Of a DNA stretch of 37,709 nt, positions 18,689 through 20,357 are shown in pieces (the stretch's first letter is position 1; each line of letters starts with the position of its first letter). A model generated the notes under the pieces. That model searched no databases, was not told the origin of the DNA, and saw nothing but the letters and a program-made list of their open reading frames with translations. Source of the stretch: Dehalococcoidia bacterium (GTDB lineage Bacteria; Chloroflexota; Dehalococcoidia; SM23-28-2; HRBIN24); assembly GCA_032249735.1 (NCBI GenBank), contig JAVVHA010000017.1, positions 1 through 37,709 on the forward strand. The letters run 5' to 3'. Position numbers and translations under genes: made by a program.

Positions 18689-20017
18689 ATGTTCGAGGCC
18701 CTGACCGAGAGGCTGCACAAGGTCTTCCAGGGCCTGGCCCGCCGGGGCGTCGTCGGCGAGAGGGATCTGGAAGAGGCCCTTAAGGAGGTCCGCTTGGCCC
18801 TCCTGGAGGCCGATGTCCATGTTCAAGTGGTGCGCCAGTTCTTGGAGCGGGTGCGGGAGAGGGCGCAAGGGGCCCAGGTCCACCGCTCTCTCACCCCCGT
18901 GCAGCAGGTGATCGATATCGTCCACCAGGAGCTGACGTCCCTTCTGGGGGGAGGCCATGTGGGCCTCATCCTAGCGCCTTCACCTCCCACGGTGGTCATG
19001 CTGGTGGGGCTCAAAGGTGGAGGGAAGACGACCACCTGCGCCAAGCTGGCCCTCATGCTGCGCCGTCAGGGGCATAGGCCCCTTATGGTGGCCGCCGACC
19101 CCTTCCGCATGGCTGCCGCCGAGCAGCTACAGTCCCTCGGGCGGCAGTTGCAGGTGCCGGTGCTGGTAGGGCAAGGGGGGCCGCAAGAGGTTGCCCAGGC
19201 CCTTCACCAAGAGGCCCGGCGCCTGGGCGCTACCGTGGCCCTAGTGGACACCTTCGGCTGCCTGGCCCTGGACGGCCAGGAGCTGGAGGGCCTCACGGCC
19301 CTGCGGCAGGCCCTGCGCCCCCAGGAGATCATCCTGGTGGCCGATGCCATGACGGGTCAGGAGGCGGTGCGGGCGGCCCAGACCTTCCATGAGGCCCTGG
19401 GCCTCACTGGCGTGGTCCTCACCAAGGCCGATGGCGATGCCCGCGGTGGCGCTGCCCTCTCCATCCGGGCCGTCACTGGCGTGCCCATCAAGTGGGTGGG
19501 CACAGGCGAGAAGCCTAACGCCTTGGAGCCCTTCCACCCCGACCGCTTCGCCAGCCGCATCCTGGGCATGGGTGACATCCTCACCCTCATCGAGAAGGCC
19601 AAGGAGGAGGTCAGCCGACAGGAGGCGGAGGCCCTGGCGCAGCGGGCCCGCCGCGGCGAGATCACCCTGGAGGACCTGTTGGCCCAGCTCCAGAAGCTTC
19701 AGCGCATGGGGCCCATATCGCAGCTCCTGGGCCTCCTGCCGGGCGCTGCCTCCCTGCCTGCTCAGTCCCTGGACGCCGCCCTGGGCGAGCGTTACCTGAA
19801 GCGGGCAGAGGCCATCATCCTCTCCATGACCCCTGAAGAAAGGCGGCGCCCGGAGATCATCGACGGCAGCCGCAAGCGACGCATCGCCCGCGGCTCGGGC
19901 ACCAGCCCGGCAGAGGTGAACCAATTGCTGGACCAATACTGGCAGATGCGCCGGCTGCTACAGCACCTCTCCAAGACCCAGGGTCGTCAGCCCATGGGCC
20001 GCTGGCGCATACGTTAA
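18689..20017 (+). CDS. ffh: Signal recognition particle protein Ffh with a divergent G3 motif
   Basis: A 442-aa SRP54 GTPase that carries nascent membrane proteins to FtsY. The order is an N domain (about 1-95), a G domain with the P-loop GLKGGGKTTT (107-116) and ADPFRMAAAEQL (136-147), then VADAMTGQ, TKADGDARGGAAL and GTGEKPNALEPFHPDRFASR. The M domain ends with GSRKRRIARGSG, the SRP RNA-binding helix. The G3 motif, normally DTAGR, reads DTFGC (187-191), and P-loop and G4 positions also vary (GLKGGGKT, TKAD). The protein is otherwise complete. It is followed by rpsP with 13 bases between stop and start. Confidence 0.95.
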   Translation: MFEALTERLHKVFQGLARRGVVGERDLEEALKEVRLALLEADVHVQVVRQFLERVRERAQGAQVHRSLTPVQQVIDIVHQELTSLLGGGHVGLILAPSPPTVVMLVGLKGGGKTTTCAKLALMLRRQGHRPLMVAADPFRMAAAEQLQSLGRQLQVPVLVGQGGPQEVAQALHQEARRLGATVALVDTFGCLALDGQELEGLTALRQALRPQEIILVADAMTGQEAVRAAQTFHEALGLTGVVLTKADGDARGGAALSIRAVTGVPIKWVGTGEKPNALEPFHPDRFASRILGMGDILTLIEKAKEEVSRQEAEALAQRARRGEITLEDLLAQLQKLQRMGPISQLLGLLPGAASLPAQSLDAALGERYLKRAEAIILSMTPEERRRPEIIDGSRKRRIARGSGTSPAEVNQLLDQYWQMRRLLQHLSKTQGRQPMGRWRIR

Positions 20018-20030
20018 GGAGGTGTGAGCC

Positions 20031-20357
20031 TTGTTGAGGATCCGTTTGGCAAGACACGGGCGGCGCAACCGCCCCTTCTACCGCATCGTGGTGGCCGACG
20101 CCCGCGCCCCTAGGGACGGCAAGTTCGTGGACGTGGTGGGCTGGTACGATCCCCTGCCCGAGCCAGCCCAAATCCATGTGGAGGAGGAGCGGGCCATCCA
20201 TTGGCTTCGTCAGGGCGCCCAGCCCACGGAGGCGGTGGCCAAGCTCTTCACCAAGTTGGGCATCATGGAGAAGGCGGGCAAGGAGCCCTTCGTCTATACC
20301 AAGCACCTCGCCCGCATCGCGGCGGCCAAGACCCGCACCCCTGGCACGGAGGATTAG
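20031..20357 (+). CDS. rpsP: 30S ribosomal protein S16
   Basis: A 108-aa small-subunit protein. It begins MLRIRLARHGRRNRPFYRIV and continues with DARAPRDGKFVDVVGWYDPL, then QPTEAVAKLFTKLGI, all standard S16. The start is TTG 20031 (a second TTG follows at once), supported by a perfect AGGAGGTG at 20017-20024 six bases upstream. The C-terminal tail is a basic extension. The gene follows ffh and precedes khpA and rimM, a common rpsP neighbourhood. Confidence 0.96.
   Translation: MLRIRLARHGRRNRPFYRIVVADARAPRDGKFVDVVGWYDPLPEPAQIHVEEERAIHWLRQGAQPTEAVAKLFTKLGIMEKAGKEPFVYTKHLARIAAAKTRTPGTED

Follow-up and report, generated by a model that had tools for sequence, protein, structure and literature searches.

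The ffh gene in the stretch of DNA analysed here (the window; 37,709 nucleotides from a Dehalococcoidia bacterium) encodes DTFGC where DTAGR would be expected in G3, and its product therefore has a cysteine at the place of Arg191. This raises the question of whether the change is an artefact or the mark of a divergent paralogue, whether FtsY carries a matching change, or whether the Ffh half of the composite Ffh:FtsY active site has itself been rebuilt.

The ffh gene of the window

The open reading frame, after which rpsP starts at 20031, scores 525.8 bits against the curated equivalog TIGR00959 (cut-off 473.2) and carries the Pfam domains SRP54_N (PF02881), SRP54 GTPase (PF00448) and SRP_SPB (PF02978). 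Its genome (1.73 Mb, 99% complete) holds one Ffh and one FtsY; a third, weak PF00448 match is an ArgK/MeaB-like protein. Active-site positions are numbered as in T. aquaticus throughout, such that window Lys109 equals Gln107, Met141 equals Pro139 and Cys191 equals Arg191. The features, all on the plus strand, are as follows.

18689..20017, plus strand: ffh, the sole Ffh/SRP54 gene, 442 aa (TIGR00959, Pfam domains, single copy)
19007..19030, plus strand: G1/P-loop GLKGGGKT, residues 107-114 (alignment, codons)
19013-19015, plus strand: Lys109 in the P-loop, equal to T. aquaticus Gln107 (alignment)
19097..19117, plus strand: G2/IBD loop DPFRMAA (alignment)
19109-19111, plus strand: Met141 in the IBD loop, equal to T. 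aquaticus Pro139 (alignment)
19247..19261, plus strand: G3 DTFGC in place of DTAGR, residues 187-191 (codons GAC ACC TTC GGC TGC)
19259-19261, plus strand: Cys191 in place of Arg191 (codons)
19283..19285, plus strand: Leu199 at the position of a conserved Met, which disappears together with Arg191 (column scan)
19361..19363, plus strand: Glu225 following DAMTGQ, mostly Asp outside the clade described below (column scan)
19421..19432, plus strand: G4 TKAD, residues 245-248, an ordinary variant with the guanine-binding Asp retained (alignment)
19661..19957, plus strand: M domain, residues 325-423, with the RNA-binding motif GSRKRRIARGSG intact (PF02978)

The TIGR00959 score, the N, GTPase and M domains and the co-occurrence of SRP RNA and FtsY in its genome identify the protein as an Ffh orthologue, and its predicted NG fold matches Ffh chain 1RJ9_B with a TM of 0.93 (1.5 A over 278 columns). 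The catalytic Asp137 (135) and Arg140 (138) are retained in the IBD loop, and a dN/dS of approximately 0.14-0.25 for ffh in the clade points to purifying selection. On these characters, the gene encodes the sole, working Ffh of the cell. Two residues of a canonical SRP GTPase site are nevertheless replaced, namely Arg191 (by Cys191) and P-loop Gln107, which makes the trans contact to the partner nucleotide (by Lys109).

The codons bear out the DTFGC reading of the first-pass annotation, which had correctly counted three base changes from the DTAGR codons and had described the GLKGGGKT P-loop, the TKAD G4 and an intact M domain as we find them, the last from the PF02978 match and the RNA-binding motif. 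It had also listed the P-loop and G4 as additional variation; here the P-loop lysine proved the more telling change, and TKAD proved ordinary, a specificity shift at G4 being rejected on the occurrence of TKAD in two DTAGR-bearing Ffhs. That the motif reflects a sequencing error, or belongs to a divergent paralogue in a genome that also has a canonical Ffh, can for practical purposes be discounted, because the independent genomes HRbin24 and Chloroflexota JZ-1 MAG carry the identical five codons (which upholds the earlier exclusion of an error), genus- and family-mates likewise have DTFGC instead of DTAGR, the second canonical ffh that had been suggested as a check is absent from the genome, and across the clade the arginine loss is widespread and genomes carry one Ffh each, with few exceptions. 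As a separate observation, the JZ-1 MAG (G001), a low-coverage assembly from the window's genus, has TKAE (GAG) at Ffh residues 245-248, such that the guanine-binding Asp is changed.

Extent and history of the arginine loss

The order, the class and the phylum were scanned with a DNA pattern that reads G3 through DAM.GQ; the general form of this pattern matched 274 of 393 class genomes. The arginine is missing in all 20 members of the order with a readable Ffh G3, which is DTFGC in the window's family and DTVGY, DTVGQ, DTVGH, DTTGY or DTSGY in the rest of the order. Motifs without arginine also occur in families f62 and f36 (both DTPGY), in f68 (DTPGH/Q/Y, DTAGQ/H and DTTGQ) and in the large family f6 (DTRGA, DTVGA and DTQGA/T). 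The remainder of the class retains Arg (DTAGR, DTGGR, DTQGR, DTSGR), and Arg191 was found in 32/32 class relatives and in 74/74 Ffhs from other phyla. Among approximately 350 genomes from the other classes of the phylum, the pattern DT.G...DAM.GQ, which is blind to Cys, Ser, Gly and Trp codons at 191, detected no R191-less Ffh, bar one chance match outside Ffh. DTFGC had been presented as a peculiarity of the window protein; the arginine loss is instead a trait of a large clade. One genome (G154) has two Ffh copies on separate contigs (C125, C143), and neither of them has the G3 arginine (DTPGQ and DTAGH).

In an Ffh tree built with the trait columns removed, the Ffhs that lack Arg191 and those that carry Lys107 form one clade of 49 (support 90-92). 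Lys107 has a single origin in this clade, so that no independent origins stand behind its link to the loss of Arg191. Nested within the 49 is f21 (seven genera), which combines Lys107 with Arg191 and Met199; a topology that placed the R-less Ffhs together, with f21 outside as an intermediate with both Lys107 and Arg191, was rejected (AU test, p 0.003). Because f21 nests inside the R-less clade, Lys107 is reconstructed as having come before the loss of Arg191, that is, before several such losses or before one loss and one regain in f21. Two species of one f6 genus (G265, G086) have Gln107 and DTRGA and no Arg191; taken together with f21, this genus indicates that Lys107 is neither sufficient for nor strictly needed by Arg191 loss. 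The Ffhs of the same two species also read RAAA, and the arginine in their DTRGA lies two residues upstream of the usual place; their Gln107 is taken as a reversion from Lys.

Coupled changes in Ffh and the state of its partners

An unbiased column scan that compared 42 R-less Ffhs with 32 class relatives found losses in the clade at no more than five of 153 conserved positions (window 109, 141, 191, 199 and 412), of which position 412 is without conservation in other phyla. In the alignment, position 107 is Lys in 41 of the 42 R191-less Ffhs and Gln, His or Asn in every R191-bearing Ffh outside f21; Pro139 is gone from all 42, with Val in 37, and Met199 is usually lost. Residue 191 varies within the clade (Y, A, Q, C, H, T) and Lys107 is kept, as expected if residue 191 is no longer needed. 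The scan yielded no other newly conserved basic residue in the clade, and Asp135, Arg138, Gln144, the P-loop Lys and Thr and the TKxD Asp are all intact. At the P-loop position itself, an FtsY-like Asn (GLNGSGKT) was seen in three R191-bearing Ffhs (L210, L211, L286) and His in three Ffhs (L084, L106, L205).

In the canonical complex, no side chains contact the nucleotide of the opposite partner except Q107 of Ffh and N111 of FtsY, and Arg191 is positioned, as a pending latch, where Ras has Gln61; mutation of the E. coli FtsY residues aligned with 107, 138, 140, 141 and 191 blocks reciprocal activation and leaves complex formation unaffected (Shan et al. 2004, PMC517823). Two of the five lost positions, 107 and 191, belong to the Class II residues of that study (hypergeometric p 0.008), and position 139 sits between two others. 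The E. coli FtsY Class II mutants R386 (191) and N302 (107), which lose reciprocal GTPase activation in the laboratory, are changed at the same two aligned positions; their mutations are in FtsY, whereas the changes in the clade are natural, lie in Ffh, occur together and turn position 107 into Lys, where the mutants have Ala or Trp (Shan et al. 2004, PMC517823). Compared with T. aquaticus Ffh (1RJ9, 1OKK) and E. coli Ffh (2XXA), the clade shares the N, G and M domains, the P-loop, Asp135/Arg138/Gln144, TKxD, the GSRRRRIA RNA-binding motif, FtsY and SRP RNA, and it differs in the change of Q107 to K and of P139 to V, M or another residue, in the loss of R191 and in the usual loss of M199. No prior report of natural DTAGR variants was found in the open-access literature.

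The partners of Ffh show no corresponding change. FtsY of the window's genome (C1:139451-140266) keeps DTAGR, and in 27 clade genomes, including this one, GVNGxGKT, DTFRAAA and DTAGR are all kept, N111, R142 and R195 are canonical in 27/27, and the conserved active-site positions are the same as in FtsY of relatives with a canonical Ffh. Compensation by FtsY through a corresponding substitution in its active site, rejected for the motif residues, is therefore very improbable. An SRP RNA was also identified in the window's genome (RF00169, 66.5 bits, C1:152157-152255), and SRP RNA scores above threshold and has the GGAA loop, such that loss or change of this RNA was likewise rejected as a compensation. 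The first-pass annotation had left the choice between a shifted GTPase mechanism and a compensating FtsY; the latter half has fallen, and the coupled set Q107, P139, R191 and M199 supports the former as a shift on the Ffh side, at the level of sequence.

Readings of the Ffh half-site and genomes without SRP

We consider a rewiring confined to the Ffh half of the composite Ffh:FtsY active site in this Chloroflexota clade the best explanation, with a probability of roughly 0.55, and Lys107 the probable substitute for Arg191. Position 107, which in canonical Ffh reaches the ribose of FtsY-bound GTP, changed from Gln to Lys and IBD-loop Pro139 to Val, Met or another residue, and the pending Arg191 as well as Met199 were lost afterwards in most lineages, with FtsY remaining canonical and SRP RNA normal. 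Lys107 is predicted to reach across the interface and to put a positive charge near the twinned nucleotides, and may thereby take over enough of the activating role to make the Ffh-side Arg191 dispensable; activation would then be borne asymmetrically by R195 and N111 of FtsY and K107 of Ffh.

The missing charge might instead come from elsewhere in Ffh or from the SRP RNA, for example the DTRGA arginine two residues upstream, with Lys107 as a bystander. DTRGA does occur in several f6 species, including both with Gln107, but in the order of the window residue 189 is V, F, T or S and never R, and the clade holds no further conserved new basic residue; we thus regard this source as quite unlikely.

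The strongest competing reading is relaxed constraint on SRP within the class, in which a lower dependence on SRP would have allowed slightly harmful active-site changes to be fixed in a decaying pathway. The high variability of residue 191 and the TKAE of G001 within the window's own genus would fit such decay, as would the absence of Ffh, FtsY and SRP RNA altogether from other families of the class. Decay is, however, hard to reconcile with losses confined to 5/153 conserved positions, an intact M domain and SRP RNA, a canonical FtsY, a low dN/dS and a trait that has lasted across many families, and relaxed constraint, although it survives better than another charge source, is in our judgement still rather unlikely.

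The genomes without SRP are an observation in their own right. In 23 near-complete genomes from 13 families of the same class, no Ffh, FtsY or SRP RNA was found by a PF00448 search for Ffh and FtsY, by TIGR00959 (applied to seven of the 23) and by RF00169 at E 0.1 or better. Eight of these genomes, all from family f18, are single contigs of 1.4-2.1 Mb and 99-100% complete. The protein search was positive in 14/14 control genomes, the RNA search did detect SRP RNA in five relatives, and rpsP is present in all 22 SRP-less genomes searched. The surroundings of rpsP in the SRP-less genomes showed no clean trace of a deleted ffh, since most members of the class do not have the two genes side by side. 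The whole SRP pathway has apparently been lost in concert in these genomes; the open-access literature yielded no earlier account of a loss of SRP in Dehalococcoides. To our knowledge, the textbook view is that bacteria always have an SRP; its apparent absence from related near-complete genomes would contradict that view and deserves a separate study.

Beyond the one-sided rewiring itself, we offer as a tentative possibility, short of an even chance, that a P-loop lysine acting in trans on FtsY-bound GTP took the place of the arginine latch that Ffh has in cis, that reciprocal activation thereby became chemically asymmetric and that other families of the class discarded the SRP pathway as a whole. 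Deviant Walker A ATPases (MinD, Get3, ParA) have a trans-acting signature lysine in GKGGxGKT. The window Ffh (GLKGGGKT) resembles them, as a lead only, in having a lysine at the P-loop start of a dimerising SIMIBI NTPase, and it weakly matches Pfam CbiA (27.8 bits, cut-off 25.4); unlike theirs, its lysine stands at the third position (GLK) rather than the second, and the dimer is a GTPase heterodimer. The kinship would be at most one of working alike, not of membership.

Arg191 and Gln107 (rarely His or Asn) are kept in every Ffh examined outside the clade, and both lie in the network by which SRP and its receptor activate one another. If the rewiring of the Ffh half-site is correct, the order of steps would be a P-loop lysine first, followed by loss of Arg191 in several lineages, or by a single loss and a regain in f21. 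A clade that lacks the arginine on one side only constitutes a natural experiment on how much symmetry this switch requires, from which a role for Lys107 that can be tested is predicted.
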